Assembly (NCBI GenBank): GCA_018831055.1
Contig: JAHJRE010000039.1
Coordinates: 1 to 36,992 of the forward strand
Source: Bacteroidota bacterium
GTDB taxonomy: Bacteria > Bacteroidota > Bacteroidia > Bacteroidales > B18-G4
Direction: 5' to 3'
Length of the DNA: 36,992 nucleotides
Each line of letters begins with the position of its first letter. Position 1 is the first letter of the stretch. The notes under the pieces are model-generated. The model saw nothing but the letters and a program-made list of their open reading frames with translations. It ran no database searches and was not told the DNA's origin. The translations under genes and the position numbers were made by a program. Positions 1,231 to 23,452 of this stretch are shown here, piece by piece.

Positions 1231-2361
1231 TCAGCTTCGGAAGAAATCTGAGACTTTTTCTGCCACGAAGGCTATTTCATTCTCCGAAAGTCCGTAAAAA
1301 AAAGGAAGTCGCACGATGGTTTCAGCATAGCGCACAGCATTAGGTAGTTCTCTTCCATCGTGCTTATCTTTATAATAGGGGCTGTTATGCAACGGCAGGT
1401 AATGGAATACGGCATGCACGCCTTTTTTGTTCAGGAATTGGAGTAATTCAATTCTTTCCTTAGGATTCCTGGCCAGGAAATAGAACATACTTCCATTTAC
1501 ATTAGCATAACCGGGGATTACCGGAAGGGTTAACAGTCCTTTATCCTGAAGGGGCTTGAGATAATCAAAATACGTATACCAAATATCTTTCCTGCGCTGT
1601 TGTATTATTTTCATGTCCTTAAGCTGGGCCAGGAGGGCTGCTGCCATCATTTCGGATGGCAGGTATGAGGCGCCCACGTCCACCCATTCGTATTTTACAA
1701 CATCACCTCTTTGAAATGCCGCGCGGTTGGTGCCTTTCTCCCAGATAATTTCTGCCCTTTCTTTCAGTTTACCATCGTTAACGGTCAACATTCCGCCTTC
1801 GCCGGTAATAATGTTTTTCGTTTCATGGAATGAGAAGCTTGCCAGATGTCCGATACTTCCCAATGCGCGTTCGCGGTACCATGAATCGATGGAGAGGGCA
1901 GCGTCTTCCACAACAAGCAGATTATACTTTCGGGCGACATGCATGATGGCATCCATGTTGCAGGCAACACCACTGTAATGGACCACAATGATGGCTTTTG
2001 TACGGTGTGAAATCAATGATTCGATGAGAGTTTCATCGATATTGGGTTGGTCGGGGCGGCTGTCGGCGAAAACGATTTTTGCATTGTGCAATGCAAAGGC
2101 ACTGGCAGTAGAGACAAAGGTAAAAGACGGGCAGATCACCTCATCGCCGGGTTCAAAGCGGGTCAGTACGGCGGCCATTTCCAGGGCATCGGTGCATGAA
2201 TTGGTTAAGAAAGCCTTTCCAAATCCGTATTTTTTTTCGAAAAACGAATGGCACTGACGTGTAAAGTTCCCGTTGCCTGAAATACGTCCTTCACGGGCAG
2301 CTTCCGTCATGAAATTTATTTCATTACCCGTGAAATGAGGCTTGTTAAAAGGGATTTTCAT
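1231..2361 (-). CDS. rffA: dTDP-4-amino-4,6-dideoxygalactose transaminase (RffA/WecE family)
   Basis: A 376-residue PLP enzyme of the DegT/DnrJ/EryC1/StrS family. It matches RffA/WecE along its whole length: start MKIPFNKPHFTGNE, then CPSFTFVSTA, VHYSGVACNMD, SFHETKN with the PLP lysine Lys182, EKGTNRAAFQRG and a C-terminal VFHYLPLH. The family moves an amino group from glutamate to dTDP-4-keto-6-deoxyglucose, giving dTDP-Fuc4N for surface glycans. One oddity: the usual DAAQ motif reads DAAL here (Asp153...Leu156), losing the Gln that normally contacts the PLP ring. It lies 14 bases after a polyprenyl-phosphate glycosyltransferase gene on the same strand. The exact substrate could be another 4-keto sugar. 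Confidence 0.88.
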   Translation of the reverse strand: MKIPFNKPHFTGNEINFMTEAAREGRISGNGNFTRQCHSFFEKKYGFGKAFLTNSCTDALEMAAVLTRFEPGDEVICPSFTFVSTASAFALHNAKIVFADSRPDQPNIDETLIESLISHRTKAIIVVHYSGVACNMDAIMHVARKYNLLVVEDAALSIDSWYRERALGSIGHLASFSFHETKNIITGEGGMLTVNDGKLKERAEIIWEKGTNRAAFQRGDVVKYEWVDVGASYLPSEMMAAALLAQLKDMKIIQQRRKDIWYTYFDYLKPLQDKGLLTLPVIPGYANVNGSMFYFLARNPKERIELLQFLNKKGVHAVFHYLPLHNSPYYKDKHDGRELPNAVRYAETIVRLPFFYGLSENEIAFVAEKVSDFFRS

Positions 2362-2375: not shown

Positions 2376-3296
2376 TTAGAGGACTTTGTCGATGTGGTAG
2401 GGAGGTTTTCGCTTTTGCACCTGATAAATACGACTGATATATCCACCGATAACACCAAGGCTGAAGATAATCAGGCTTGTACTAAAAAGAACCGTAACGA
2501 TGAGGGATGTATATCCCAGGGGAATATCCAGAAAGAGTTTTTTCAGGATAAAGTGAACACCCAGAAGGAAGGTCAGTACAGAAATAGTGAAGCCTCCGTA
2601 TATCATTATTTTCAGTGGCATATTGGTATAAAAGAAAACCAGGTCGGATGCGAGACGGAAAAGCTTGATAGGGGTGTAACCCGACTTATTACCCTTTCTT
2701 TTATGATGTTGCACTTCCACCTGTAAAATATCATCGGTGTACCATTGGAGAATTTCATCGATATAGACGAAGTGGAGGTCGTGTTCCACGATCTTGTCGA
2801 TGATCTCCTTCCTTATCAACCTGAATGAGGATCCTTTGCGAGCTCTTCTGTAAAATACGCTGGAGTACTTTCTAACGGAGTAGCTTCCAATGTTCCGGAT
2901 GATTGAATGCTTTTTATTCCTGAAAACTCCATAAACCATATCCGGGTTGTAATCATTCGCCACTGCAGCGAGTTTTTCTATTTCGGCAGGAGGGTGCTGG
3001 AGATCATCGTCCATTGTAATGATATAATCACCCTTCACGAAGTGGAAACCGCACATGATGGCGTTGTGCTGTCCATAATTTTTGTTAAGCCGGATGGCTG
3101 TAATGTTTCCAGGGTTTTCTTTTTTGAGGTGTGTAAGCACTTGCCAGCTTTGGTCACGGCTGCCATCGTCGATGAAGATGACTTCAAAGCTTTTGCTGAT
3201 CTTGTCAAAAACCTCTTTGATTCCTTTGTACAGTTCGCTCAGGAGTGTATCACTCTGGAAAACGGGAACAACAACCGAATAATCAACCTGGTTCAT
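2376..3296 (-). CDS. GT2 glycosyltransferase with two C-terminal membrane helices (polyprenyl-phosphate sugar synthase type)
   Basis: A 306-residue protein. Residues 1-220 form a GT-A fold GT2 domain: YSVVVPVF at the start, DDGSRD (43-48), and MDDDLQHPP with the metal-binding Asp run at 96-98. Two hydrophobic segments follow (about 228-250 and 263-287), then a basic cytoplasmic tail. This is the ArnC/GtrB/DPM-like arrangement, known to transfer a sugar from a nucleotide donor onto undecaprenyl phosphate at the inner membrane. It sits 29 bases after the TMTC-like transferase gene and 14 bases before rffA. I infer that it supplies a lipid-linked sugar to a membrane transferase such as that neighbour. 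The sugar is not readable from the sequence. Confidence 0.85.
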   Translation of the reverse strand: MNQVDYSVVVPVFQSDTLLSELYKGIKEVFDKISKSFEVIFIDDGSRDQSWQVLTHLKKENPGNITAIRLNKNYGQHNAIMCGFHFVKGDYIITMDDDLQHPPAEIEKLAAVANDYNPDMVYGVFRNKKHSIIRNIGSYSVRKYSSVFYRRARKGSSFRLIRKEIIDKIVEHDLHFVYIDEILQWYTDDILQVEVQHHKRKGNKSGYTPIKLFRLASDLVFFYTNMPLKIMIYGGFTISVLTFLLGVHFILKKLFLDIPLGYTSLIVTVLFSTSLIIFSLGVIGGYISRIYQVQKRKPPYHIDKVL

Positions 3297-3315
3297 GCCG
3301 AAAAGTTAGGTCATG

Positions 3316-3323
3316 CAAATATA
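3316..3323 (-). promoter_or_regulatory. Candidate Bacteroidetes -7 element (TATATTTG)
   Basis: On the minus strand this reads TATATTTG, an exact fit to TAnnTTTG, 20 bases upstream of the GT2 start at 3296. No TTG was found at the expected -33 distance, so this is a weak call for an internal promoter. Confidence 0.3.
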
Positions 3324-3325
3324 AT

Positions 3326-5338
3326 CTATTTCCGTTCAGGAATGGGGTTGTCGCCTGAGGCCTTTCTCAGTTTCTCAAAGTAGAATCCTGCTTTTTCTTC
3401 ATCACCTTTTTGGCGGTAATAGCGGTTGAGGAACATGCTCACCTGGGCGGGAGCGCCCATTTCAACAGCTTTTTCATAAAACCCAATGCCCTTTATAGTG
3501 TCTCCGATACTAAGATAATAATTACCAAAGTTAAGGTAGGGAAGGGTTTCTTTCGGGTCAAGTTTGATGATTTCTTCATTCAGGATGAGGGCTTTGCGGA
3601 AATCACCTTTCAGGAAATGGAGATTAGCCAGGCGTGATCTGGGATTGATGATTCCCGGTTCCAGTTCTATGCACTTTTCGTACATAATCATTGCAGAATC
3701 GCGCATGCCTTTATTTTCGTATACCATTCCGAGGTTAAAGAGGGCGACCCCATAATCCGGTTTGATCTCAATTGCCTTCTTGAAATACTTCATAGCCTGG
3801 TCGTAATCCTTGAAAATTTTATTGTAGGCAATCCCGAGATTGGACCAGGATGAATAATGTTCAGGGTAGATTTCCAATGCTCTTTTCCAAAAACCGGCGG
3901 CTCTTTCTGCCGAGGGTTTAATGAATTTGGTAACATCCACGGGTTTTGATAGTTCTCTGTTGACTTGTCGCATAATTTCGTCGGCCAGAAGGTCATTGGC
4001 TTTAACCGAATTATGAAGGTGTTTGATATCGGCATTGAACAAGGTATATTGTGTATTCCAGTCCTTGTTTCTGTCGCGGGTTTTTAAGGTGGAAGGGATC
4101 AGCAATAATAGAACAATAACGGTAACGATTGCTGTATTTATGCTGAATGCATTGCTTGTTTTTCCTGCGAGCCTGAAAACCAGGAAGAGGATATAAACAA
4201 TGGCAAGGATAAAAGGCAGGGAAGGAAAGAAAAGAAAGCGTTCAGCGATGATACCCGGGGGAAAGGCTACAATATTTGAATATGGAGCCATTGTGATCAG
4301 GAAGAACAAAAACGCAAAGGATAAAATAGCTTTTTTCCTGAAAAAGATCACGGCATACACAAACATACCCAGATAGATCAGGAAAGATAGTATTACCCAG
4401 GGGTTGGCCGGTCCGGTGAGCGGGATCATGTCATAGCCGTAATAATAAACGAGCGGGTGGGGATAGAACAGTAAGCGCAGATAATATAATAACCCATAAA
4501 GTCCTGTGGATATTCTGACAAGGAAATCATCCTGGTATCCGATGGGGTTTTCGTGAAAGCGGATGATCCTGGAAGTTTCCGGCAGGTAAAGGTATGGACC
4601 GAAGATGGATACAATTGCTACCAGCAGCATTACCCCCGTGATAATGAGTATTTTCTTTGGTTTCATATCGGTAAAGAAATGAAAGACCAGAGGGAAAACC
4701 AGGATAGTAGAAACAATAGAGGCTTTCGAAAGGAAAGCGAGAATATAGAAGATGATACCCCAGAATACCGGCCATTTTTTCCCGTAATCGGCATATTTCA
4801 GGAAGGCCTGCAGGGAGAGCAGGAAAAACCCGAGGCTAAGGATCTCGTCGCGGTTTTTAAGGCTGGCGACTACTTCGGTATGAATGGGATGGGCAACAAA
4901 GAGAAGGGTTATAAGAAAGGGGAGATACAGGCTTTGGTTGCGGAAGAGCCTTTTAAGAACCTGAAAAATCAGCAGGGCAAGCAGGATGTAAAGAAGAAGG
5001 TTGATAGTATGGCTGATATAAGGCATTTTAGGATTATTCTCTCCGAAAATACCGTATTCAATAGCGAATGAAATCCTCACAACCGGCCGGTATCCATAAT
5101 GCATATCTTCCAGTTCACGGGAGGCATAAAGGGAAGTCATAATTTCCGGTATGGCTTTGAAACCCTGCTTGATCAGATCATTTCCCGATGAGATATGATA
5201 ATCATCGAGGGAGTAAAAATTGCCAATGGTATTACTATAATTAACTGCGCCCAGCAGGATAATGACCAGGATGAAAATCCGGTTCAGCAATTTTGAATGG
5301 TTCTTTTCATTCAAAGGTGTAGGATCGGGTTGTTTCAT
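3326..5338 (-). CDS. TMTC-like membrane glycosyltransferase with C-terminal TPR repeats
   Basis: A 670-residue protein. The first ~420 residues are a multi-spanning membrane domain. After the first helix comes an external loop with FYSLDDYH, matching the acidic pair in the first loop of GT-C enzymes (PMT/TMTC type). The motif HPIHTEVVASLKNRDEIL also resembles TMTC proteins. From about residue 470 there are roughly five TPR units, for example a WSNLGIAYNK...DYDQAMKYFKKAIEIKPDY repeat. Eukaryotic TMTCs are O-mannosyltransferases using lipid-linked mannose; bacterial homologues are mostly uncharacterised. The neighbouring polyprenyl-phosphate GT2 and rffA fit a lipid-linked sugar transfer role. 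The TPRs are predicted to lie on the outer face and may bind acceptor proteins; this is inference. Confidence 0.8.
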   Translation of the reverse strand: MKQPDPTPLNEKNHSKLLNRIFILVIILLGAVNYSNTIGNFYSLDDYHISSGNDLIKQGFKAIPEIMTSLYASRELEDMHYGYRPVVRISFAIEYGIFGENNPKMPYISHTINLLLYILLALLIFQVLKRLFRNQSLYLPFLITLLFVAHPIHTEVVASLKNRDEILSLGFFLLSLQAFLKYADYGKKWPVFWGIIFYILAFLSKASIVSTILVFPLVFHFFTDMKPKKILIITGVMLLVAIVSIFGPYLYLPETSRIIRFHENPIGYQDDFLVRISTGLYGLLYYLRLLFYPHPLVYYYGYDMIPLTGPANPWVILSFLIYLGMFVYAVIFFRKKAILSFAFLFFLITMAPYSNIVAFPPGIIAERFLFFPSLPFILAIVYILFLVFRLAGKTSNAFSINTAIVTVIVLLLLIPSTLKTRDRNKDWNTQYTLFNADIKHLHNSVKANDLLADEIMRQVNRELSKPVDVTKFIKPSAERAAGFWKRALEIYPEHYSSWSNLGIAYNKIFKDYDQAMKYFKKAIEIKPDYGVALFNLGMVYENKGMRDSAMIMYEKCIELEPGIINPRSRLANLHFLKGDFRKALILNEEIIKLDPKETLPYLNFGNYYLSIGDTIKGIGFYEKAVEMGAPAQVSMFLNRYYRQKGDEEKAGFYFEKLRKASGDNPIPERK

Positions 5339-5353: not shown

Positions 5354-6148
5354 TTAAAGTGTTCTGTCGGCCAGCCCTTTGATTGCCAGCATGGTTTGTT
5401 TTCTGGCCTCAATGAAGCCCATATGTCCTGTCCCATCCAGGATAAGTATTTCGGAGTGTTTTGGAAGGATGACCTGTTCCATGATCAAATCCATAGGAAT
5501 GCGGGAGTCGTCTTTTCCAATGATGAACAAAACAGGAAATCCCGCATTTTTCAGTACATTTTCCTTCCCGGTCCTAAGTTTCATCCCTTCGAGTGCTGCG
5601 ATGATGTTTGCGGGGGATATTTTGGAGGCCTGGGAATGAAGTTTTTCAATTTCTCTTTCATACAATTCTTCATTTCCGGGAGAGAAGAGAGAAGGAATGA
5701 ACTGTAGGATAAAGTCGTGATGATTTTCTTCCACTATGCGGATTGTCCGGTTACGGTTTGCTTTGGCTTCCGGGCTGTCGGCAGCGGCATGTGAGTGGAA
5801 TAGAACGAGAGCGCCTATTTTTGCGGCATACATTTCAGCAAACGACAATGCCACATACCCTCCCATGGAATGTCCTGCCATCAGGCATTGCTTGACGTTA
5901 AGCGAATTAAGAACTTTGTTGACGGCTTCCGCCATGATTTCCATGGTATTGATCATATCAATACTATCGCTCTTTCCGAATCCGGGGAGGTCGATGGAGA
6001 CCACGCTGTAATCGTTGGAGAGAAAGTCTTCAAAACGGTTCCAGATTTTGGAATTCTCCAGGAAGCCATGGAGCAGGACGATGGTTTTTCCATGGCCTTT
6101 GACCCTGAAACGGATGTCTTTTCCTTTAAATTTGATACTACTAACCAT
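5354..6148 (-). CDS. Alpha/beta-fold hydrolase
   Basis: A 264-residue hydrolase. It has an oxyanion-loop motif LLHGFLEN (25-32), a nucleophile elbow AGHSMGG with Ser94, an acid in GKDDSRIP (Asp213 or Asp214) and DGTGHMGF with His242, giving a complete Ser-Asp-His triad. No signal peptide is seen, so it is probably cytoplasmic. I chose ATG 6148 rather than an upstream ATG at 6166. ATG 6148 overlaps the stop of the preceding peptidase gene by eight bases (ATGGTTAG), which suggests translational coupling. The family includes esterases, haloperoxidase-like and MenH-like enzymes; the substrate cannot be assigned. It is 15 bases before the TMTC-like gene. Confidence 0.88.
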   Translation of the reverse strand: MVSSIKFKGKDIRFRVKGHGKTIVLLHGFLENSKIWNRFEDFLSNDYSVVSIDLPGFGKSDSIDMINTMEIMAEAVNKVLNSLNVKQCLMAGHSMGGYVALSFAEMYAAKIGALVLFHSHAAADSPEAKANRNRTIRIVEENHHDFILQFIPSLFSPGNEELYEREIEKLHSQASKISPANIIAALEGMKLRTGKENVLKNAGFPVLFIIGKDDSRIPMDLIMEQVILPKHSEILILDGTGHMGFIEARKQTMLAIKGLADRTL

Positions 6149-7541
6149 TGTACATAATCTTTTCAATTTCCAAAACTGATTTCGGAATAGGTTTACCCAG
6201 GACGATGCAACCCGATTCTGTAATCAGGATATCATCTTCAATACGTATGCCGCCGAAGTCTTTGTATGTTTCCACTTTATCGTAATTAATAAATTCGGAA
6301 AATTTCTTTTCATTGCGCCATTGATCGATGAGAGCCGGTATGAAATAAATTCCGGGTTCATCGGTGATCACAAAGCCGGGCTGTAGTCTTCTGGCCATAC
6401 GCAGGAAAGCAAGTCCGAATTGTTTAGAGCGTTGTATTTCCTGATCATATCCTACAAAGTTTTCGCCCAGGTTTTCCATATCATGAACATCGAGGCCCAT
6501 CATATGTCCTAATCCATGTGGGAAGAACAGAGCGTGAGCACCCTGGCTGACGGCTTCCCCAATATCACCCTTCATCAGGCCGAGAGCTTTCAAACCTTCT
6601 GCGATGGTTGTTGCGGCAAGCAAATGCATTTCTCTGTAAAATATACCGGGTTTGCAGGCTGCAATCACGTCGTTATTGGCTTTGAGGACGATCTCATAGA
6701 TTTCTTTCTGACGGGTATTGAATTTTCCCCCGACAGGAACGGTACGGGTGATATCGGAGGCATAATGCATTTCCGATTCGGCCCCGGCATCGGTGACCAT
6801 CATTCTGCCTTCCCGGAGGGTATTCCCGTGATAATGATTATGTAATGTTTGACCGTTAATGCTAAGGATCACCGGGAAAGAGACAGGGCCTCCCATGGAA
6901 AGGGATATCCCTTCGATGGTACCGGCTATTTCTCTTTCAACAACCCCGGGCATGGCCATTTTCATGGAGGTGGTATGCATTGCATAGGCAATATCCATAG
7001 CTTTTTCGATCTCTCTGATTTCGTGTTCGTCCTTGACCGACCTGAGTTTAACAACACCACGGATCAGCTCTTCGGAGACATAGGATTTGATTTTCGGGAA
7101 ATCGACATCCAGGATTCTGTTAAGCTGCATCCAGTGATCGCCCCGGTAAGGAGGGAGGATGTGCAACCTGCGTCCTGAACCTATGGCTTTACTTAAATAT
7201 TCAGGAAGTGCAGACAAAGGCCGGGTATGTTCTACTCCTACTCTGAGTGCACGGTCTTTCATGGATGGCTGGGGGCCCATCCAAATAATATCGTCCATAG
7301 TGACATCGTCACCGAAAATTATGTCGTTACCTGCATCTAAGTCTATGATGGCAGCAAGATCAGGCTGGTCGAGGCCGAAAAAATATAAAAAGCTGCTATC
7401 CTGACGGAAATGATAGGTGTTGGCGGGGTAATTCATTGAGGCTTCCTGGTTGCCCATAAAAAGGATAACGCCTCCGGAAAGTTCTTTACGCAGGTTTGTT
7501 CTGCGTTCCTGGTACAAACTGGCTTCAAACATATTGGTCAT
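6141..7541 (-). CDS. M24B metallopeptidase, prolidase-like (aminopeptidase P family)
   Basis: A 466-residue protein with an N-terminal creatinase/AMP_N domain (about 1-135) and a C-terminal pita-bread catalytic domain. All five dinuclear metal ligands are visible: Asp in VTDAGAE, Asp in SDITRT, His in HGLGHMMGLDVHD, Glu in TDEPGIYF and Glu in GIRIEDD. The family removes residues linked to proline. Compared with the next gene it has a long insertion between the HGLGH block and the EPGIYF block, and another before GGIRIED. This is how prolidases (PEPD type) differ from bacterial PepP. It is probably a cytoplasmic Xaa-Pro dipeptidase or aminopeptidase; no signal peptide is seen. It starts 72 bases after the paralogue upstream and may have its own promoter. 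Confidence 0.9.
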   Translation of the reverse strand: MTNMFEASLYQERRTNLRKELSGGVILFMGNQEASMNYPANTYHFRQDSSFLYFFGLDQPDLAAIIDLDAGNDIIFGDDVTMDDIIWMGPQPSMKDRALRVGVEHTRPLSALPEYLSKAIGSGRRLHILPPYRGDHWMQLNRILDVDFPKIKSYVSEELIRGVVKLRSVKDEHEIREIEKAMDIAYAMHTTSMKMAMPGVVEREIAGTIEGISLSMGGPVSFPVILSINGQTLHNHYHGNTLREGRMMVTDAGAESEMHYASDITRTVPVGGKFNTRQKEIYEIVLKANNDVIAACKPGIFYREMHLLAATTIAEGLKALGLMKGDIGEAVSQGAHALFFPHGLGHMMGLDVHDMENLGENFVGYDQEIQRSKQFGLAFLRMARRLQPGFVITDEPGIYFIPALIDQWRNEKKFSEFINYDKVETYKDFGGIRIEDDILITESGCIVLGKPIPKSVLEIEKIMYNG

Positions 7542-7560
7542 TTTTTGTTAATTACGACTT

Positions 7561-7568
7561 CAAAGGTA
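7561..7568 (-). promoter_or_regulatory. Candidate -7 element (TACCTTTG) for the prolidase-like gene
   Basis: The minus strand reads TACCTTTG, fitting TAnnTTTG, 20 bases upstream of ATG 7541 in the 72-base gap between the two M24 genes. No clear TTG at -33. It would separate expression of the downstream peptidase/hydrolase/glycosyltransferase genes from the upstream peptidase. Confidence 0.4.
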
Positions 7569-7613
7569 AATAAAACATGGGTGAATTAGGTGAATCTGTC
7601 CGGAAAATCAGGA

Positions 7614-8915
7614 TCATGAATTTCTGTCATTCATGATTGATTCTATCTCAGATGCTTCTGCCGGTATGTTTTCCGAAAGGTTAACCGGTCCGTTTTCGGT
7701 AACCAGGATAACATTTTCTATCCTGATTCCCATTTTTTCTTCTCTGAGATAAATGCCCGGCTCGAAGGTAAGCACCATTCCTGGTTGAAGAATTTCATAT
7801 TTTGTGCCGACATCGTGCACATCAAGTCCGATGAAATGGCTGACACCATGCATGAAGTATTTCAGGTACAGCGGGTTTGATGGTGGTTGCTTTTTCACAT
7901 CTTCGGCAGAGAACAATCCGAGTCTGATCATACTTTCTTCCATCATGGCATTCACCTCTTTGTTAACGTTATCGATAGTATTACCCGGGACCAGGAGTCT
8001 GCCGGCCTGTTCCTGGATTTTCATGATGGCATCATAGAAAGTCTTCTGTCGTTTGGTAAACCTTCCGTTAACCGGGATGGTACGGGTGATATCGGCGGCA
8101 TAGTTTAAGTATTCTGCGCCAAAATCCATGAGGAGGAGGTCACCGCTGCGGCATATATCGCTGTTAGTAACATAATGCAGGAAGCATGCATTTTCCCCGG
8201 AGGCAATGATGGGTTTGTAGGCGTGATTCCTGGCTCCGTTCATCATAAAAGCGTAGGTTATCTCAGCTTCTATCTGGTATTCTTTCATTCCGGGAACAAT
8301 GTTTTTCAGTACCCTGTTAAAGGCAAGCCCGGTGATGTTGATAGCCTGTCGAATAAGATCAATCTCCGTCTCCGATTTAATCATTCGGAGTTTTTTCAGC
8401 AGGGGGGCAAGCCTTTCATACTTGTGTAGAGGGAATTTGCTTTGGAGTTCCCGGCTGAACCTAAGGTCGAAATAGGGAACGGGGTTTGAGTATTTTGGAT
8501 ATTCATTGGCATTCAGATACACAGATTCGGATGCTGTCATGACTTCATGCAGGAAGCTGTCGAAAGAGTCGTTATACAGGATGGTTTTTATTCCTGAAAT
8601 ACTTGTGGCTAGTTCTTTATCCAGTTTTTTACCTTCCCAGGTTTCCACGGCAGGATCAGGTTTACGGATGAAGAGGACTTCCTGAAAATCTTTATTATGG
8701 TATGTGGGTGCCAGGACAAGGCGGGTCATTTCCTGGTCTATGCCGGTGAGATAATACAAATCTGAATTTTGCCGGAAAGGGAAACTCTGGTCACCATTCC
8801 TGGGGTATTCATCGCTGGAGTTGATGATTGCCAGGGAGCCCTGGGGCAGGAGAGATATAAGGTTTTTCCTGTTTTGTTCGAAGAAGTTAGATGCGGGTTG
8901 AGAAATGTTCATCAT
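7614..8915 (-). CDS. pepP: Xaa-Pro aminopeptidase (PepP-like, M24B)
   Basis: A 433-residue aminopeptidase P. The N-terminal AMP_N domain contains SSDEYPRNGDQSFPFRQNSD and YYLTGI. The catalytic half has LLMDFGAEY, AADITRTIPV, HGVSHFIGLDVHD, LTFEPGIYL and GIRIENVILV, so all five metal ligands are present. The GVSHFIGLDVHD block is close to the classic PepP motif, and there are no prolidase-type insertions. It should cleave the N-terminal residue from peptides with proline at position two. The gene is divergent from sdhC with a 159-base intergenic region. The start could be either of two adjacent ATGs (8915 or 8912). It is the first gene of a minus-strand run of six. Confidence 0.92.
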   Translation of the reverse strand: MMNISQPASNFFEQNRKNLISLLPQGSLAIINSSDEYPRNGDQSFPFRQNSDLYYLTGIDQEMTRLVLAPTYHNKDFQEVLFIRKPDPAVETWEGKKLDKELATSISGIKTILYNDSFDSFLHEVMTASESVYLNANEYPKYSNPVPYFDLRFSRELQSKFPLHKYERLAPLLKKLRMIKSETEIDLIRQAINITGLAFNRVLKNIVPGMKEYQIEAEITYAFMMNGARNHAYKPIIASGENACFLHYVTNSDICRSGDLLLMDFGAEYLNYAADITRTIPVNGRFTKRQKTFYDAIMKIQEQAGRLLVPGNTIDNVNKEVNAMMEESMIRLGLFSAEDVKKQPPSNPLYLKYFMHGVSHFIGLDVHDVGTKYEILQPGMVLTFEPGIYLREEKMGIRIENVILVTENGPVNLSENIPAEASEIESIMNDRNS

Positions 8916-8990
8916 TCACCAATTATTTAAATTGAATAAAAATTAACATCCGGACATTTATCTGTGATAAATTTAACAATGGATTTTCCA

Positions 8991-8998
8991 TACATTTG
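8991..8998 (+). promoter_or_regulatory. Candidate -7 element (TACATTTG) upstream of sdhC
   Basis: TACATTTG fits TAnnTTTG and lies 76 bases upstream of ATG 9075, in the AT-rich pepP/sdhC divergent region. No TTG at -33 was seen. Initiation here would give a leader of roughly 70 bases. Confidence 0.4.
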
Positions 8999-9052
8999 CC
9001 TATTAACATGCAAAGAAACATTATTTAATGTTCTGTTACAAATCGTTAAACA

Positions 9053-9060
9053 TACATTTG
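9053..9060 (+). promoter_or_regulatory. Second candidate -7 element (TACATTTG) directly before sdhC
   Basis: The same octamer TACATTTG recurs 62 bases downstream of the first copy, only 14 bases before ATG 9075. If used, the leader would be under ten bases. Two identical -7 elements suggest tandem promoters or that only one is active. Confidence 0.35.
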
Positions 9061-9074
9061 AAAAATTGTATTTT

Positions 9075-9755
9075 ATGAGTAAGTTCCTGCACTATTCATC
9101 ACTGACGAAGAAATACATCATGTCCATTGCCGGATTTTTCCTGATGGTGTTTCTGATCGTCCACCTGACCATCAACCTGTTCATTTTGCCGATCACGGAA
9201 AATCACGAGGAGATCTTCAGGGAAGCGGTACACTTCATGACCAGCAATCCTTTGGTGAAGATCATGGAGATCTTTTTATTTGCAGCTTTCATTATTCACA
9301 TCATTTATGGTGTGGTACTTCAGTTGCATAACTGGAGATCCCGTCCCATCCGTTACAAAATTGAAGGTTGGTCGCATACCTCGTATTTTTCCAAGTTCAT
9401 GATCCATACGGCGGTGATTGTTTTCATCTTTCTGGTGATACACATGATGAACTTCTACCTGGTCAAAGCCGGGCTTACCAAGGCTCCTGAGGGGCCGGTG
9501 GTTGTTCAGAACAGCCATGATTTTTATCATATGGCCATCAATCTGTTTTCAGACACAACCTATTCCGTGTTATATATTTTGCTGATCATTGTATTGGGTT
9601 TTCATCTGAATCATGCATTTCAGTCGGCCTTTCAGTCTCTGGGATGGAACCACAGCAAATACACTCCAGCGATTAAGTTAGTCGGGAACGTTTATTCCAT
9701 TGTGATACCTTTGGGATTCATACTCATTCCATTGTATTTTATCTTTTTTGTATAA
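9075..9755 (+). CDS. sdhC: Succinate dehydrogenase / fumarate reductase cytochrome b subunit
   Basis: A 226-residue membrane anchor with five predicted helices, the Wolinella-type single large di-heme subunit. Helices lie near residues 15-37, 63-84, 108-131, 163-183 and 203-225. Candidate heme-ligand histidines are His30, His75, His112/His123 and His177/His180. The protein passes electrons between the quinone pool and the Sdh catalytic subunits. I chose ATG 9075 (MSKFLHYSSLTKKY) over an upstream ATG at 8964. The extra 37 residues do not look like family sequence, and both candidate -7 elements lie inside that extension. It leads the sdhCAB set. Confidence 0.93.
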   Translation: MSKFLHYSSLTKKYIMSIAGFFLMVFLIVHLTINLFILPITENHEEIFREAVHFMTSNPLVKIMEIFLFAAFIIHIIYGVVLQLHNWRSRPIRYKIEGWSHTSYFSKFMIHTAVIVFIFLVIHMMNFYLVKAGLTKAPEGPVVVQNSHDFYHMAINLFSDTTYSVLYILLIIVLGFHLNHAFQSAFQSLGWNHSKYTPAIKLVGNVYSIVIPLGFILIPLYFIFFV

Positions 9756-9792
9756 CCATTGATTATCAAGACATTCAAAATAATTTGCCACT

Positions 9793-11733
9793 ATGACAAA
9801 ACTTGATCCAAAAATACCGGAAGGTCCTCTCGCCGAAAAGTGGAGCAGGTATAAATCGACTCAGAATCTTGTCAATCCTGCCAACAAGCGGAAGCTCGAC
9901 ATAATAATCATCGGTACGGGGCTGGCCGGAGCATCGGCAGCAGCCAGTCTCGGGGAAATGGGTTTTAAGGTAAAGGTTTTCGGGATACATGAGAGTCCGA
10001 GGCGTGCTCACAGTATAGCTGCCCAGGGAGGTATCAATGCAGCGAAGAATTATCCGAACGATGGAGACAGCATATACCGTTTGTTTTACGACACCATAAA
10101 AGGCGGTGATTACCGGTCGAGGGAAGGCAATGTGTATCGACTTGCTGAAGTCAGCAACGATATTATCGACCAGTGTGTAGCTCAGGGGGTTCCTTTTGCC
10201 CGTGAGTATGGTGGTACGCTGGCAAACCGTTCTTTTGGGGGAGCATTGGTATCCAGGACGTTTTATGCCCGTGGCCAGACCGGTCAGCAGTTACTTTTAG
10301 GTGCTTATGGTGCCTTGATGAAAGAGATAAACCGTGGTAATGTCACCATGTATCCCAAGCGGGAGATGCTTGATCTGGTGATCATTGACGGTCGTGCCCG
10401 GGGAATAATCACACGTGAATTAAATACAGGGAAGATAGAACGTCACTCTGCCCATGCCGTAGTAATTGCAACGGGTGGTTACGGCAATGTTTTCTTTCTT
10501 TCCACTTATGCGATGAATTCCAATGGAAGCGCATCCTGGCAGTGTTATAAGCGGGGTGCGTTCTTCGCGAATCCGTCATTTACACAGATCCATCCCACCT
10601 GTATCCCTGTCCATGGCGATTACCAGTCGAAACTGACACTGATGAGTGAAAGTCTCAGGAATGATGGCAGGATCTGGGTTCCGAAGAAGAAAGAAGATGC
10701 GGAGAAGATCCGCAAGGGGCAAATGAAGCCTGTGGAAATCCCGGAGGAAGACAGGGATTATTATCTTGAGCGCCGTTATCCGGCCTTTGGCAACCTGGTT
10801 CCCAGGGACGTTGCTTCCCGTGCAGCCAAGGAAAGATGTGATGCAGGCTACGGGGTTGGCAGCACAGGCCTTGCCGTTTACCTTGATTTCGCCGATGCTA
10901 TCAAGAGACTGGGTTTATCGGTGATCGAAGCCCGTTATGGGAATCTTTTCCAGATGTATGAAAAGATTGTGGATGAAAATCCATACAAAACACCGATGAT
11001 GATCTATCCGGCGGTTCATTATACTATGGGAGGTACCTGGGTTGATTATGAACTTCAGACCACGGTTAAGGGACTGTTTGCAACGGGGGAATCGAATTTT
11101 TCAGATCACGGGGCCAACAGGCTTGGGGCTTCGGCCTTGATGCAGGGATTAAGTGACGGGTATTTCGTGTTGCCTTACACCATTCAGAATTACCTTGCCG
11201 ACCAGATCAATGTGCCGCGGTTCTCCACCGATACACCCGAGTTTACAGAAGCCGAAAAGGCTGTCCGGGAAAAGATCAACCGTTTGATGAGCATCAGGGG
11301 CAACCGGACAGTTGACAGCTTCCACCGTGAGTTGGGGCATATCATGTGGGAATATGTGGGTATGGCAAGAAATGAAGAAGGATTGAAGAAGGCAATAGAG
11401 CTCATCCGGAAGACGCGCGAAGATTTCTGGAAGCAGGTGAGAGTGCCAGGTAAAGCCGAGGATGTAAACCTTGAGTTGGAAAAAGTCCTCAGGGTGGCCG
11501 ATTTTCTTGAGATCGGGGAATTGATGGCCCGAGACGCTTTGAACCGGAATGAATCCTGCGGGGGGCATTTCAGGGAAGAATACCAGACCCCGGAAGGGGA
11601 AGCCTTGCGTGACGACAAGAACTACACTTATGTTGCTGCCTGGGAGTATAAAGGCGACGACAAGGAACCCGAGCTGCACAAGGAACCCATCAAGTTTGAG
11701 TTCATTGAGGTCAAGCAAAGGAGTTACAAGTAA
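9793..11733 (+). CDS. sdhA: Succinate dehydrogenase / fumarate reductase flavoprotein subunit
   Basis: A 646-residue flavoprotein. It has a dinucleotide-binding GTGLAG (41-46) and the covalent FAD site [13 protein letters not shown] with His73. Further family blocks are [32 protein letters not shown] and [18 protein letters not shown]. The length and the C-terminal [19 protein letters not shown] fit the type B (Wolinella/Bacteroidetes/Bacillus) enzymes. It oxidises succinate to fumarate or the reverse at the inner face of the membrane, linked to menaquinone through SdhB and SdhC. The gap after sdhC is 37 bases with no terminator. Confidence 0.96.
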
Positions 11734-11777
11734 GCATCCGATTTACAAAACGATTAACGAATTTAAAAATCACACAT

Positions 11778-12539
11778 ATGGATTTGACTCTTAAAATCTG
11801 GAGACAGGCGAATCCCGCAACCAGGGGAAAATTTGAGACTTACCAGGTGAAGGGTATTTCTTCCGATGCATCATTCCTGGAAATGCTGGATATTCTCAAT
11901 GAGCAGCTTGTGATGGAAGACAAGGATCCGGTGGCATTTGACCACGATTGCCGGGAAGGTATTTGCGGGACCTGTTCATTATACATCAACGGAAGGCCGC
12001 ACGGACCTGACAGTGGCATTACGGTATGCCAGATGCACATGAGGAATTTCAAAGACGGATCGACCATAACCATAGAACCATGGAGGGCCAAGGCATTTCC
12101 GGTGATCAAGGATCTGATGGTAGATCGTACTGCCTTTGAAAAGATCATTCAGGCAGGGGGATATATTTCCGTGAACACGGGTAATGCTCCTGATGCCAAC
12201 GGTATCCCGGTACCCAAATATGCTGCCGATATTGCCATGGATGCTGCTGCCTGTATAGGTTGCGGTTCCTGTGTTGCTGCCTGTAAAAATGCCTCGGCCA
12301 TGCTTTTTGTAGCAGCCAAGGTATCACAGTTTGCCGTGTTGCCGCAGGGGAAAGTTGAAGCTGCACGCCGCGTTCAGGCTATGGTCAATAAGATGGATGA
12401 ACTGGGATTTGGTAATTGTACCAATACCTATGCCTGCGAGGCAGAATGTCCTAAAAACATTTCCGTCAGTCATATTGCCAGGATGAACCGTGAGTTTTTC
12501 ATTTCCAAAGTTTGCTCATCCAAAGAAGCAGTAAAATAG
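11778..12539 (+). CDS. sdhB: Succinate dehydrogenase / fumarate reductase iron-sulfur subunit
   Basis: A 253-residue protein with an N-terminal plant-type [2Fe-2S] domain: [10 protein letters not shown] with Cys58, Cys63 and Cys66, plus Cys84. The C-terminal bacterial ferredoxin part contains [11 protein letters not shown] (Cys159, 162, 165, 169) and a second group (Cys214, Cys220, Cys224 in [13 protein letters not shown]). Together these ligate the [2Fe-2S], [4Fe-4S] and [3Fe-4S] clusters that carry electrons between SdhA and SdhC. It starts 44 bases after sdhA and ends 4 bases before holB, so holB is probably in the same transcript. Confidence 0.96.
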
Positions 12540-13720: not shown

Positions 13721-14827
13721 ATGGACGATACAAACCACCATATTTTCAATAATATATTCCTGACCCGGGGATTAACGGAAGAACCGGCAAACAATGAGAG
13801 GGGTCAGTCATCATTTAAACATGGCTGTTGTAAGCTTGACAGTACCGAATGGGTGAATGATATCCCCATGGCTCCCGGGACAGAAGTTTTCGATTATGTT
13901 GAGGTAAGGTTTAAGAACAGCCACAAAGAGTTTTTCATGGTTACGCAGGGTTATGAACTGTTGGTTGGGGATATTGTAGCGGTGGAGGCCTCGCCGGGTC
14001 ATGATATAGGGATAGTTTCCCTTACCGGAGAGACGGCCCGCCTGCAGATGAAAAAGAAAGGGCATTATATACGAACCGATACCGTTAAGCAGGTTTACCG
14101 CAGGGCACGTATCACAGATCTTGAAAAATGGGTAAGTGCTGTGAAGAGGGAAAAACAGACCATGCAACGGACCAAGTCGATCGTTGAGAACCTTGGCCTT
14201 GACATGAAGATGAACGATATTGAGTATCAGGGGGACAATACGAAAGCCATATTTTATTATACGGCTGAAGACAGGGTAGACTTTCGGGAGTTGATCAAGA
14301 TCCTTGCTGAGGAATTCCGGGTAAGGATAGAGATGCGTCAGATCGGGGTGAGACAGGAAGCTGCGCGTTTGGGTGGTATTGGATCCTGTGGCAGGGAATT
14401 GTGCTGTGCAACGTGGATAACCCGTTTTCGCTCGGTGACCACCAATACGGCGCGCACACAACAGTTATCGCTGAATCCGCAAAAACTAGCCGGTCAGTGC
14501 GGAAAGTTAAAATGCTGCCTGAACTTTGAAAACGATTGCTACATAGATGCTTTGAGCCATTTCCCGGATAACCGGATAGCATTAAAAACCGGAAAAGGAG
14601 AGGCAATACATCATAAGAGTGATGTTTTCAAAGGGGTTATGTGGTATAGTTATGTTAATGACAAATCCAAGATCCTTGCCATCAAGATTGAGAAGGTGAA
14701 AGAGATCATGGCGATGAATGAGAAAGGAGTTTTCCCTGAAAAACTGGAAGACTATGCCGAAGTGACTGAGAAGAAGGTGGATTACGGTAACGGCATGGAG
14801 CAAAATGACCTCCACCGCTTTGATTAA
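13721..14827 (+). CDS. ricT: RicT/YaaT-type PSP1-domain iron-sulfur protein
   Basis: A 368-residue PSP1-domain protein. Characteristic cysteines are in GSCGRELCCATW (Cys223, 228, 229), AGQCGKLKCCLNFE (Cys260, 265, 266) and an extra N-terminal pair in KHGCCKLD (Cys36, 37). In Bacillus, RicT works with RicA and RicF as an iron-sulfur complex that steers RNase Y in mRNA maturation; whether the Bacteroidota protein does the same is not established by this sequence. Residues 1-50 are a low-similarity leader before the PSP1 core (VRFKNSHKEFF). The gene follows holB by 40 bases with its own promoter candidate. Confidence 0.88.
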   Translation: MDDTNHHIFNNIFLTRGLTEEPANNERGQSSFKHGCCKLDSTEWVNDIPMAPGTEVFDYVEVRFKNSHKEFFMVTQGYELLVGDIVAVEASPGHDIGIVSLTGETARLQMKKKGHYIRTDTVKQVYRRARITDLEKWVSAVKREKQTMQRTKSIVENLGLDMKMNDIEYQGDNTKAIFYYTAEDRVDFRELIKILAEEFRVRIEMRQIGVRQEAARLGGIGSCGRELCCATWITRFRSVTTNTARTQQLSLNPQKLAGQCGKLKCCLNFENDCYIDALSHFPDNRIALKTGKGEAIHHKSDVFKGVMWYSYVNDKSKILAIKIEKVKEIMAMNEKGVFPEKLEDYAEVTEKKVDYGNGMEQNDLHRFD

Positions 14828-14894
14828 ATTTATTGGGTTTAACAATAAATTCCCCTTTCGGTACTTATCAAAGAAAGTTTTTATCTTTACCCGG

Positions 14895-15362
14895 ATGTCA
14901 AGATATATTGTTTACATAATCCTGCCGGTTTTGTTTCTTTTTTTTATTTCCTGCGACAGGGGGAGGTTGTATGACAGGTCCTTTTCGGTTGCTGATCAGA
15001 TTTGGCATATGGACTCAGCCATGGTTTTTTCTGTAGAGGTTGACGACAGCCTGTCGCTTTATAGGTTTTATCTGAATATCAGGCATAATACCGATTATCC
15101 CTTCAGTAACATTTTCCTTTTTCTGGATACGCGCTTTCCAAACGGTAACACGGCGCGTGACACGCTGGAATGTATTCTGGCCGACAAGCAAGGTCGCTGG
15201 TATGGCACGGGGGGAGGCAGGATCAGGGATAATCAGATCCTGATCCGGGAAGGATTGAAATTTCCGAGAAATGGTGAGTACTTATTCAAGATTACTCAGG
15301 GGATGAGGGAGACCGGGTTGGAGGGAATGGAAGATGTGGGAATCAGGATAGAAAAGATGTAA
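14895..15362 (+). CDS. gldH: Gliding motility lipoprotein GldH
   Basis: A 155-residue lipoprotein. The start at ATG 14895 gives a short signal (MSRYIVYIILPVLFLFF) with ISC at the lipobox and Cys20. An upstream start at 14805 would bury this signal, so I rejected it. The mature part has GldH features: YDRSFSVADQIWHMD, YRFYLNIRHNTDYPFSNIFLF, and a KQGRWYGTGGGRIRDNQILIREG block. In Flavobacterium GldH is needed for gliding and supports the type IX secretion machinery. Homologues occur in non-gliding Bacteroidales, where the role is unclear. It sits between ricT and a class A PBP gene, 19 bases before the latter. Confidence 0.87.
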   Translation: MSRYIVYIILPVLFLFFISCDRGRLYDRSFSVADQIWHMDSAMVFSVEVDDSLSLYRFYLNIRHNTDYPFSNIFLFLDTRFPNGNTARDTLECILADKQGRWYGTGGGRIRDNQILIREGLKFPRNGEYLFKITQGMRETGLEGMEDVGIRIEKM

Positions 15363-15381
15363 AATATAAAGTGAGTTATTG

Positions 15382-17649
15382 ATGGCCGGAGTGGAGAAAA
15401 AGAAAAAGCGCCCATCCAGGTACCTGATCCGGTTCTGGGGACTATACCTAACGGTTCTCCTGATAGTTTTCCTGATGTTTTTCGGGATAGCTCATGGGTG
15501 GTTCGGATACATGCCCGGATTCGAGGAGCTGGAAAATCCGGAAAGCAACCTTGCATCGGAGATTTACTCGGCTGATGGCGTGTTGCTGGGTACCTATTAT
15601 ATTGAGAACCGTTCCAATATCCATTTTCAGGATTTACCTCCTCATTTGGTCAATGCCTTGTTGGCGACCGAAGACATTCGTTTTTACAAGCATGCAGGCG
15701 TGGATTCCAAGGCATTATTCAGGGTTGCATTTGGTGTTTTAACCGGTAATTACAGTGGAGGAGGCAGTACCATCACCCAACAGTTGGCTAAGAACCTTTT
15801 TCCGCGTGGCGAGAACCTGACCAAAATGCAACTGGTGATGCGAAAGTTCAAGGAGTGGGTAACGGCTACAAGGCTGGAACATAATTACTCCAAGGAAGAA
15901 ATCATTGCCATGTATTTCAATACCATGGATTACGGGCATCAGAGTTTTGGGATCAAGTCGGCGGCAAGGACATTTTTCAACAAGACACCGGATTCGTTGA
16001 ACCTTGAAGAGTCGGCACTGTTGGTCGGAGTGGTGAACGGGCCGACCTGGTACAGTCCGGTAAGAAACCCGGGTCACGCACTGCAGCGGAGGAACCTGGT
16101 TTTATCGCAGATGGAGAAATACGGGTTCATCGACAAGGAGACATTAGACAGTGTATCCTCCATACCCATTGACATGTCGAGATTTCGGGTTCAGGACCAC
16201 ACGGCTGGGCTGGCGCGTTATTTCCGGGAGTATCTCCGGGTGAATTTGCATGACTGGTGCAGGAATCATTACAAAGCCGATGGCAATCCGTACAATTTAT
16301 ATAAAGATGGTTTAAAGATATATACTACCATTGATTCAAAGATGCAGACATATGCAGAGGAGGCTGTGGCCGAGCATCTTGCAAGCGATTTACAGCCGGC
16401 TTTTTATGAGCATTGGAAGGGGCATCGTTATGCACCATATGTTTTTGAACCTGAGGTTATCCAGGAAGAGATCAGGAGGTTACAGGATCAGGCCATGCGC
16501 CGGTCGGAGCGGTATCAGCGTTTGGCTTCCCGCGGGGTAGAGGAAGATTCCATCCGGATAGTCTTCAACACGCCGGTATCTATGGAAGTATTTACCTGGG
16601 AAGGTGATGTTGATACCATATTGACGCCGATGGATTCCATCCGTTATTATAAATTTTTTCTGAATGCAGGGCTAATGGCTATGGATCCCCATTCGGGCCA
16701 TGTAAGGGCTTATGTTGGGGGTATTGAATACCGTTTCTTCAAGTATGATCATGTGACTCAGGCCAAAAGGCAGGTTGGTTCCACGTTCAAGCCATTCTTA
16801 TATACACTGGCCATGCAGGAAGGAGAGTTTTCTCCCTGTTATAAGGTAGCGAACATTCCATATAGCGTAGAGCTTCCCACGGGGGAGTTCTGGGCACCCA
16901 GGAATTCATCCGATGCGAGAGTTGGTGAGATGGTCACCCTGAAATGGGCCCTGGCCAACTCAAATAACTGGATATCGGCTTTTCTGATGAAAAGGTATTC
17001 GCCATTGTCGGTGATCAAGATAGCAAGGAAGATGGGCGTAGTAAGTGAGATCCCGCCGGTTCATGCGATAGCGTTAGGGTCGGCCGATCTTTCCTTGTAC
17101 GAAATGGTAGGAGCGTTCAATTCCTTTGCCAATAAGGGGGTTTATGTGGAGCCAATATTTATCACCCGCATTGAAGACAAGAACGGTAATGTTGTTGAGG
17201 ATTTCATACCGGATAAGAATGAAGCCATGAGCGAAGAGACAGCCTATTTGATGCTGGAGCTGATGAAAGGGGTGGTACAAACGGGTACAGGTATACGTTT
17301 GCGGTTGAAGTACAGTTTTCAGAATCCTATAGCCGGCAAGACCGGAACCACGCAAAATCAGAGCGACGGATGGTTTATGGGCATCACACCGGATCTGAGC
17401 GCAGGAGTATGGGTAGGATGTGAAGATCGCGGGGCCCATTTCCGCTCAATTTCCTTAGGTCAGGGAGCCAATATGGCCTTGCCCATATGGGCACTATTCA
17501 TGCACAAGGTTTACGCCGACTCCACCCTGGGCGTGGGTATGGGAGATTTTGAAAAGCCGTTAAAAGCATTGGACTTGGAGTTGAATTGCGATGAAAGTGA
17601 AGATGTGGAGGGTGTTTTAATGGAATTTGGTGAGGAGGAGGAGTTTTAA
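15382..17649 (+). CDS. Class A penicillin-binding protein (GT51 transglycosylase + transpeptidase)
   Basis: A 755-residue PBP1A-like enzyme with a basic cytoplasmic start and one membrane helix (about 17-36). The GT51 domain has LLATEDIRFYKHAG with catalytic Glu97 and GGGSTITQQLAKNLFPR. The transpeptidase has STFK with Ser467/Lys470, SNN at 527-529 and KTGTT at 653-657, so both activities look intact. It builds and crosslinks peptidoglycan in the periplasm. ATG 15382 is preferred to a TTG three bases earlier. It ends 18 bases before an AT-rich gene of different composition, with no visible terminator between them. Confidence 0.94.
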   Translation: MAGVEKKKKRPSRYLIRFWGLYLTVLLIVFLMFFGIAHGWFGYMPGFEELENPESNLASEIYSADGVLLGTYYIENRSNIHFQDLPPHLVNALLATEDIRFYKHAGVDSKALFRVAFGVLTGNYSGGGSTITQQLAKNLFPRGENLTKMQLVMRKFKEWVTATRLEHNYSKEEIIAMYFNTMDYGHQSFGIKSAARTFFNKTPDSLNLEESALLVGVVNGPTWYSPVRNPGHALQRRNLVLSQMEKYGFIDKETLDSVSSIPIDMSRFRVQDHTAGLARYFREYLRVNLHDWCRNHYKADGNPYNLYKDGLKIYTTIDSKMQTYAEEAVAEHLASDLQPAFYEHWKGHRYAPYVFEPEVIQEEIRRLQDQAMRRSERYQRLASRGVEEDSIRIVFNTPVSMEVFTWEGDVDTILTPMDSIRYYKFFLNAGLMAMDPHSGHVRAYVGGIEYRFFKYDHVTQAKRQVGSTFKPFLYTLAMQEGEFSPCYKVANIPYSVELPTGEFWAPRNSSDARVGEMVTLKWALANSNNWISAFLMKRYSPLSVIKIARKMGVVSEIPPVHAIALGSADLSLYEMVGAFNSFANKGVYVEPIFITRIEDKNGNVVEDFIPDKNEAMSEETAYLMLELMKGVVQTGTGIRLRLKYSFQNPIAGKTGTTQNQSDGWFMGITPDLSAGVWVGCEDRGAHFRSISLGQGANMALPIWALFMHKVYADSTLGVGMGDFEKPLKALDLELNCDESEDVEGVLMEFGEEEEF

Positions 17650-19257: not shown

Positions 19258-19275
19258 TTCAATCGATTAATTGAT

Positions 19276-21125: not shown

Positions 21126-21150
21126 AGCAAAGAGATGAATGGTTGACCGG

Positions 21151-21182
21151 CAAAGTTATAAACAAATACATAAAAAATACAA
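21151..21182 (-). promoter_or_regulatory. Candidate promoter for the GT2/flippase operon
   Basis: On the minus strand TTG (21182-21180) is followed after 21 bases by TAACTTTG (21158-21151), both Bacteroidetes elements at the expected spacing. The -7 element ends 25 bases upstream of ATG 21125. The rest of the 165-base divergent gap (21126-21290) is AT-rich; I see no clear -7 match for the plus-strand gene. Confidence 0.55.
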
Positions 21183-22682: not shown

Positions 22683-22683
22683 A

Positions 22684-23424: not shown

Positions 23425-23452
23425 TGTCGTTTTTGATTCGGATCTGAAATGG

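Follow-up and report, generated by a model that had tools for sequence, protein, structure and literature searches.

Elements of several described glycosylation systems recur in a locus of a Bacteroidota bacterium (assembly GCA_018831055.1) in which genes for a TMTC-like GT-C transferase with C-terminal tetratricopeptide repeats (TPRs), for a family 2 glycosyltransferase (GT2) and for an RffA-type sugar transaminase follow one another on contig JAHJRE010000039.1 (positions 1 to 36,992); this whole stretch, hereafter the window, lies on contig C39, one of the 342 contigs of a 4.19 Mb genome with a completeness of 96%. The Arn pathway runs in the order ArnB-ArnC-ArnT, with lipid A as the acceptor of ArnT. 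In animals, three enzyme families initiate the O-mannosylation of membrane proteins, for example cadherins, and TMTC1-4 make up one of them (PMC11292533); prokaryotic TMTC homologues are mentioned in passing in PMC7801869. The viosamine island of Pseudomonas syringae carries vioA (aminotransferase), vioS (ketosynthase III), vioR (reductase), acp and vioB (acyltransferase), which were proposed to yield dTDP-N-(3-hydroxybutyryl)viosamine (PMC3927599). In the Pgf system of Streptococcus mutans (PgfS, PgfM1, PgfE and PgfM2), a membrane GT2 and multi-transmembrane proteins are needed for the modification of surface proteins (PMC5856776). The general O-glycosylation of Bacteroidota is extracytoplasmic and widespread, has mannose in its core and lacks a known transferase (PMC12871550). 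No recognizable description of the gene cassette reported below, or of a bacterial TPR-bearing GT-C protein with amino-sugar genes, was found in the open-licence literature as represented by titles and the beginnings of abstracts.

The bacterial TMTC-like protein resembles the eukaryotic TMTC1-4 as a GT-C protein with 11 deduced transmembrane segments (TMs), DD in the predicted external loop 1, a loop with a borderline DUF1736 match, an HPIHT stretch and predicted non-cytoplasmic C-terminal TPRs, but differs from them in its linkage to an amino-sugar cassette and in that the S-H-K-S residues of motif M2, the Trp of M5 and the PxxP of M6 were not seen in it. With the Arn pathway the locus shares a sugar aminotransferase, an ArnC-like GT2 and a GT-C protein with the ArnT fold, whereas the dTDP-4-amino-4,6-dideoxyhexose transaminase of the window, the acyl cassette and the C-terminal TPRs set it apart. 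The five gene roles of the viosamine island, leading to an N-acyl 4-amino-4,6-dideoxy sugar, are all represented on one contig of a relative (aminotransferase, ketosynthase III, reductase, acyl carrier protein and N-acyltransferase on G003:C196, locus L087), a likeness at the level of gene roles; in P. syringae, VioT transfers the sugar from dTDP to the flagellin glycan (PMC3927599), a step that a polyprenyl-phosphate-type GT2 together with a GT-C protein would replace here. Pgf likewise combines a membrane GT2 with multi-TM proteins, among them one of the PMT-2 subfamily, but that operon as described has an epimerase in place of the aminotransferase and no acyl cassette, and the passages on it in PMC5856776 mention no TPRs. 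Unlike the general O-glycosylation of the phylum, the TMTC-like family is patchy and its predicted sugar is an amino sugar. We propose that the TMTC-like protein, the GT2 and RffA form part of an acyl-amino-sugar glycosylation pathway in which a sugar is moved outside and probably reaches protein, a reading to which we give about even chances.

The three genes lie head to tail on the minus strand and are transcribed in the order TMTC-like gene, GT2, RffA, successive genes being separated by 29 and 14 bp. This order, of a GT-C protein with TPRs followed by a GT2 and then RffA, had been put forward in the original prediction and is borne out by the open reading frames and family matches; the range 2376-5338 covers the first two genes, and RffA lies just beyond it. 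The main features are:

3326..5338, minus strand: TMTC-like GT-C transferase with C-terminal TPRs, 670 aa (open frame, Pfam, model)
5201..5206, minus strand: codons of D46 and D45, which form the DD motif of the predicted first external loop (position computed from the translation)
4370..4555, minus strand: TMTC_DUF1736 segment, in the loop between TM7 and TM8 (Pfam)
3359..4006, minus strand: TPR-like helix pairs at residues of about 445 to 660, with a predicted periplasmic location (Pfam, AlphaFold2)
2376..3296, minus strand: ArnC/GtrB-type GT2, 306 aa, orthologous to the GT2 that relatives carry in their acyl-amino-sugar cassette
1231..2361, minus strand: RffA/WecE-type dTDP-4-amino-4,6-dideoxyhexose transaminase, 376 aa (NCBIfam)

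The original prediction further held the GT2 to be the likely sugar-lipid supplier of the TMTC-like protein and named a lack of conservation of their pairing as a finding that would refute it. To describe gene neighbourhoods, 36 TMTC loci were read, among them two each from G035 and G546; matches below 60 bits were discarded except for the acyl carrier protein (ACP), so that a 41-bit acyl-ligase match adjoining the TMTC gene in L056 counts as none. Besides the window, 34 loci extended 300 bp or more downstream of the TMTC gene; the first co-directional gene there was FabH1 in 10, an acyl-AMP ligase in 7, the GT2 in one (G002) and RffA in one (G001), and in the remaining 15 it was not among the genes tested for. 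With the GT2 next in only 1/34, a conserved operon of directly adjacent TMTC and GT2 genes was rejected. Core cassette genes lay within 10 kb of the TMTC gene in 14/36 loci, a figure that is biased upward because ten of the loci (L143-L152) had been taken for a GT2 on the TMTC contig; free of this bias is the count of genomes with both genes on one contig, 15/36, of which 12 have them at most 15 kb apart, the window counted and many assemblies being fragmented.

What is conserved is the co-occurrence of the two genes. Profiles of TMTC, GT2, GNAT and FabH2 were used to survey 295 Bacteroidales genomes, including that of the window, with up to 4, 7, 9 and 7 candidates, respectively, scored per genome, and class-I borders of 600, 285, 180 and 539 bits were chosen post hoc from the score lists. 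Among 42 genomes with TMTC-I, 36 also carried GT2-I, which occurred in 38 genomes in all (p 1.5e-37, phylogeny not corrected for); GNAT-I was likewise found in 38 genomes, 36 of them with TMTC-I, and each of the 32 genomes with FabH2-I had TMTC-I. All four genes were present together in 31 genomes, and 251 of the 295 had neither TMTC-I nor GT2-I. The p value stayed below 1e-34 when the TMTC border was varied between 500 and 650 bits, and likewise when the genome of the window was left out. A paralogue, GT2-II, served as control and was found in 38 genomes, 6 with TMTC-I and 32 elsewhere (Fisher p 0.46), while the 59 genomes with only a lower-scoring TMTC (below 600 bits) included two with GT2-I and none with GNAT-I. 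TMTC-I and GT2-I occurred together in 20 families, and within five families (f4, f13, f32, f109 and f118) all four genes were present or absent together at the class-I borders; in G011 of f4, a FabH2-like match of 389 bits fell under its border. The role of the GT2 as likely supplier is thus supported (GT2-I in 36/42 TMTC-I genomes, the control paralogue in 6/42), and a lack of conservation was found for the adjacency but not for the co-occurrence. As to single assignments, the GT2 of G490 (299 bits) and of G643 (287 bits) are ambiguous, and when both are dropped all 36 remaining GT2-I genomes carry TMTC-I; the GT2 of G633 is partial, the TMTC of G013, split across two frames, was entered as class I, and a TMTC fragment of G484 (237-residue frame) was excluded.

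Two TMTC loci of the order deserve separate mention. In L156 (G546:C10), two TMTC-like genes (7428-9374 and 14406-16361; 648 and 651 aa) lie on the same strand about 5 kb apart, and the 20 kb contain a single cassette-type match, an RffA-like fragment at their end. In L061 (G013:C38), the TMTC gene is split over two frames (9736-11851) beside a cassette that otherwise looks intact, owing to either an assembly error or decay.

In most relatives read, the cassette consists of genes for ACP, a FabH-like ketosynthase and a short-chain dehydrogenase/reductase (SDR), followed by the GT2 and then a GNAT-type acyltransferase, in surroundings of acyl-AMP ligases, B12 radical-SAM enzymes, sulfotransferases, a Wzx-type protein, sometimes an MBOAT protein and often RffA. 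L145 and L146 show an unbroken run TMTC-FabH1-ACP-FabH2-SDR-GT2-GNAT in one direction. GT2 and GNAT share a contig in 29/35 genomes and are at most 250 bp apart in 25/35. The residues C119, H267 and N297 of FabH2 are invariant in 17 rows and sit at the positions of the FabH triad. One to three genes for B12-binding radical-SAM proteins are present in many cassettes (L087, L095, L091, L183 and others).

In the genome of the window, cassette-type genes are spread across two contigs. Contig C4 carries FabH2-SDR-GNAT in the order of the cassette, with no GT2 between SDR and GNAT, and the window GT2 is the sole GT2 match in that genome at E<=1e-45. In the GT2 tree, the GT2 of the window, together with that of G002, grouped with those of its own family and with those of G477 and G647 (support 99/97), and in the FabH2 and GNAT trees the C4 copies grouped with G001 and G503 (100/100 and 100/97); the window GT2 thus follows the lineage of the family, and FabH2 and GNAT of C4 follow a different one. 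In G001, a member of the same genus, the GT2 sits inside the cassette and no GT2 separates TMTC from RffA, so that the two placements of the GT2 look interchangeable, as expected if the window GT2 serves the cassette. Genes of nadD and gmk type (Pfam; in G004 also yicC) lie near RffA or the cassette in G002 and G004, and by eye the same neighbourhood was recognized in G001, G003 and G005. The window order has the look of two older loci since the RffA or cassette of relatives lies near nadD-, gmk- and yicC-like genes, and it probably arose by joining an M24-hydrolase-TMTC locus to an RffA/cassette locus. Elsewhere in this genome, on L004 (G000:C35), a second, distant TMTC-like protein (787-2709, 640 aa, 61 bits) is directly followed by a distant GT2-like frame (1-735, 24.5 bits).

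The window GT2 matches Pfam Glycos_transf_2, and its best relatives in the PDB are ArnC (145.9 bits) and sll0501 (GtrB), with dolichyl phosphate mannose (Dol-P-Man) synthase lower at 53.5 bits; against the NCBIfam PgfS model it reached 115.3 bits (cut-off 500). RffA passes the NCBIfam models NF008687 (513.1 bits, cut-off 375) and TIGR02379 (479.9 bits, cut-off 434.85), under the name dTDP-4-amino-4,6-dideoxygalactose transaminase, and rmlB is present in the genome of the window (480.8 bits). Among 60 relatives, RffA was found in 14/15 genomes with TMTC-I as opposed to 9/45 others, that of G041 being only 40% identical. Six further loci fetched for RffA alone (L101-L106) contained a GNAT, Wzx, sulfotransferase or MBOAT homologue in five cases, a weak link to the cassette because polysaccharide loci often contain sulfotransferase and Wzx genes.

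TPR families match the TMTC-like protein well above their cut-offs in hmmscan, whereas PF08409 (TMTC_DUF1736) reached 23.8 bits in that search (cut-off 27) and 27.4 bits in a six-frame search, which gave no match in 14 control genomes. In alignment A1 (n=20, the window protein and two distant rows, L014 and L015, included), PF08409 was recognized in 10/20 and PMT_2 in 6/20 at E<=0.001; alignment A2 includes two GT2 rows (L011, L013) picked up beside TMTC. The frame is kept in 7/8 other genomes of the family at E<=1e-160. A full AlphaFold2 model from 35 sequences (predicted local distance difference test, pLDDT, 89; predicted template modelling score, pTM, 0.84) consists of a helical membrane domain and TPR-like helices, the latter forming about six pairs between residues of about 445 and 660 when paired by eye. 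As the best 50 Foldseek rows for the whole model were large complexes and TPR proteins, a separate model of the membrane domain (17 sequences, pLDDT 84.9, pTM 0.89) was made and searched alone, with modest Foldseek E-values (best 6.7e-4). Structural comparison of this model with the PDB gave STT3 (8agb_A, Z 19.6, root mean square deviation 4.5, 342 residues aligned), PMT4 (9i5l_A, Z 18.4, 4.6, 351 aligned) and ArnT (5ezm, Z 16.8, 4.9, 342 aligned), where differences of Z inside the GT-C group say nothing on the acceptor. The best 50 rows were by title oligosaccharyltransferases and their complexes, PMTs, ALG and GPI mannosyltransferases, arabinosyltransferases, PimE, DPY19, ArnT and GPI transamidase; that no TMTC-named entry is among the matches listed carries no weight. 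According to these models the membrane domain is of the GT-C fold, for which the evidence comes from modelling because the profile of the membrane domain (A3) matched no PDB sequence at E<=1.

Loops rich in Lys and Arg on one side and the AlphaFold2 helices fit 11 TMs with the N-terminus inside and the C-terminus outside, a layout that would place D45-D46 on the first external loop, DUF1736 in a long external loop and, in keeping with what had been predicted earlier, the TPRs outside. The same layout has been published for the human TMTCs, together with seven motifs, M1-M7 (PMC7801869, Table 4), the positions of which were matched by eye from the printed motifs in 35 aligned sequences. The DD of M1 is kept in 35/35. 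In M2 (SHKSYRP), the Y, R and P are kept in 35, 34 and 35 of the 35, respectively, and the S-H-K-S, modelled as mannose contacts in human TMTC (PMC7801869), is not. The Arg of M3 (RxD) is found in 35/35, followed by x-Glu for x-Asp in 30/35. M4 retains its Lys in 35/35 and M7 its Arg in 35/35, with Glu in 31 and Asp in 4; Lys-Glu of M4 and Glu-Arg of M7 are modelled as phosphate and metal contacts in the TMTCs (PMC7801869). Because the modelled metal and phosphate residues are partly kept and the modelled sugar pocket is altered, the sequences suggest that the protein uses a sugar other than mannose. The stretch LLFVAHPIHT is close to the LLFAVHPIHT of human TMTC3 (PMC7801869).

The genomes and models show which genes are present, how they are conserved, co-occur and cluster, and what fold is predicted; from these we infer not only the topology of the TMTC-like protein but also the sugar, its acyl group, the direction of transfer and the catalysis. 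RffA would convert the product of RmlB to a dTDP-4-amino-4,6-dideoxyhexose, the ACP/FabH/SDR set would supply a 3-hydroxyacyl-ACP, and the GNAT protein would move the 3-hydroxyacyl group onto the 4-amino group of the sugar; in the genome of the window, the remaining pathway genes would be located elsewhere, at least on contig C4. The ArnC-like GT2 may then load the N-acyl sugar onto undecaprenyl phosphate, and after flipping of the lipid-linked sugar the TMTC-like GT-C protein would transfer it, by means of its DD motif, to an acceptor on the periplasmic side, probably Ser/Thr of exported proteins held by the TPRs. Protein is favoured as the acceptor because of the TPRs and the resemblance to PMT and STT3; protein thus stands as a plausible candidate acceptor, and selection by the TPRs as a plausible candidate mechanism. 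Mannose, the sugar of the eukaryotic TMTCs cited in the original prediction, is disfavoured, as an N-acyl 4-amino-4,6-dideoxyhexose is what RffA and the ACP/FabH/SDR/GNAT set suggest and the S-H-K-S of M2 is not kept. The full and more specific proposal, namely an undescribed periplasmic pathway of uncultured Bacteroidales in which a TPR-bearing GT-C protein attaches an N-(3-hydroxyacyl) 4-amino-4,6-dideoxyhexose, provided by a viosamine-type cassette via undecaprenyl phosphate, to exported proteins selected by the TPRs, is offered tentatively and at somewhat less than even chances.

Several observations weigh against the acyl-amino-sugar pathway as such. Direct adjacency of TMTC and GT2 is confined to the window and G002. 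Six TMTC-I genomes are without GT2-I, and while four of them (G021, G454, G529 and G585) are only 78-85% complete and the cluster of G021 and G529 meets the contig end inside FabH2, G491 (98%) and G590 (90%), of one family, had no GT2, FabH2, SDR or GNAT homologue within the 19 kb read around TMTC, G491 showing a single 38-bit acyl-ligase match there; these two look like genuine exceptions. The co-occurrence p values ignore phylogeny, the borders were fixed after the scores were known, and the profiles were built partly from cassette loci (A5 and A6 from these). TMTC scores are not sharply bimodal (612, 596, 581, 567 and 565 bits near the border); 596 and 581 belong to second copies in class-I genomes, and G657 and G464 (567 and 565 bits) fall just under the 600-bit border, with no sharp gap, and have no cassette. 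In the genome of the window, no ACP or acyl-AMP ligase was found in the 12 kb of C4 that were read, the rest of the genome not having been searched for them, and no FabH1 at E<=1e-50, the single match being FabH2. The best NCBIfam model of the GT2, ArnC, is that of a relative only (174.8 bits, cut-off 529 not reached), and GNAT stays below the PseH cut-off (47.4 versus 93.1 bits). The Glu of M4 is present in only 4/35 sequences, the DW of M5 is altered to D/N followed mostly by Met (25/35), and no PxxP of M6 was seen in TM9 of the 35 sequences as aligned by eye. No acceptor gene was linked to the locus.

The main rival keeps the same sugar-lipid pathway but has the sugar transferred to a lipid or glycan (lipid A core, O-antigen or capsule), as for ArnT, with the TPRs holding a partner from the envelope machinery. 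An ArnC-like GT2, an aminotransferase and a GT-C protein correspond to the successive steps of the Arn pathway, the membrane domain matches ArnT at Z 16.8, and many cassettes contain Wzx-type, sulfotransferase and MBOAT genes, as polysaccharide loci typically do; the TPRs, however, are known as protein binders, and the top fold matches, STT3 and PMT, are protein glycosyltransferases, though this order of Z does not decide acceptors. We regard a glycan or lipid acceptor as rather unlikely, yet to be taken seriously. That the genes are accidental neighbours, the TMTC gene being syntenic behind M24 and hydrolase genes and the GT2 and RffA serving an unrelated polysaccharide, would agree with the look of two joined loci in the window and with G003, G004 and G006, which keep the M24-TMTC order without adjoining GT2 or RffA. 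Accident would leave unexplained the 36/42 co-occurrence with an unassociated control paralogue, the FabH1 or acyl-AMP ligase gene directly downstream of TMTC in 17/34 other loci and the joint presence or absence within five families, and we consider it improbable.

Two readings that retain mannose fare worse. In classical O-mannosylation, the original prediction read at face value, the GT2 would make polyprenyl-phosphate-mannose and the GT-C protein would place the mannose on Ser/Thr, as the PF08409 match, the likeness of the LLFVAHPIHT stretch to human TMTC3 and the invariant DD might lead one to expect; since the mannose-contact S-H-K-S is not conserved, the cassette is of the amino-sugar and acyl type and the GT2 is nearer to ArnC than to Dol-P-Man synthase in the PDB, this is a distinctly improbable reading. 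A 2025 review describes the transferase of the general Bacteroidota O-glycosylation as undiscovered and suggests seeking it among relatives of eukaryotic O-mannosylation enzymes (PMC12871550), and the TMTC-like protein might be that enzyme, acting on glycans that start with mannose. In a survey of 395 genomes of the phylum, that of the window included and three candidates scored per genome, a TMTC-like match at E<=1e-60 was obtained in 16, none except the window's own above 437 bits, and the sugar cassette is a different one; a family so patchy is not the general transferase, and the phylum-wide role was rejected with hardly any probability left to it.

If a protein is the acceptor, the acyl-amino-sugar pathway would add a glycosylation route to a phylum in which the general O-glycan transferase is still unidentified (PMC12871550), it would provide a reason for the fusion of TPRs to a GT-C domain, and the TMTC architecture would be that of a general TPR-guided protein glycosyltransferase rather than a mannose-specific one. 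A candidate donor pathway beside this bacterial branch of the TMTCs makes the sugar predictable and therefore testable.

Upstream of the TMTC-like gene, the minus-strand order of transcription is M24 peptidase, M24 peptidase, alpha/beta hydrolase, TMTC-like gene, GT2 and RffA:

5354..6166, minus strand: alpha/beta hydrolase, directly upstream of TMTC (Pfam)
6141..7541, minus strand: M24 peptidase (Pfam)
7614..8915, minus strand: M24 peptidase (homology; name by eye)

All three are frequent syntenic neighbours of the TMTC gene in the family; the hydrolase gave no sign of a role in the pathway, and the two M24 peptidases are probably functionally unrelated to it. A sequence search of named genomes returned nine loci, seven of them in Bacteroidota metagenome-assembled genomes (two titled Bacteroidales) and two matching the TPRs only.

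Other parts of the window carry genes of related kinds, named by eye. Two multi-TM GT-C-like proteins, two GT2s and a UPF0104-like protein at 17668-23562 form another GT2/GT-C set within a stretch of low GC content (0.33-0.34 over 18001-22000). At 30756-34558, MBOAT-like and SGNH-like genes are followed by a DegT-type aminotransferase gene and resemble the modification genes of polysaccharide loci.

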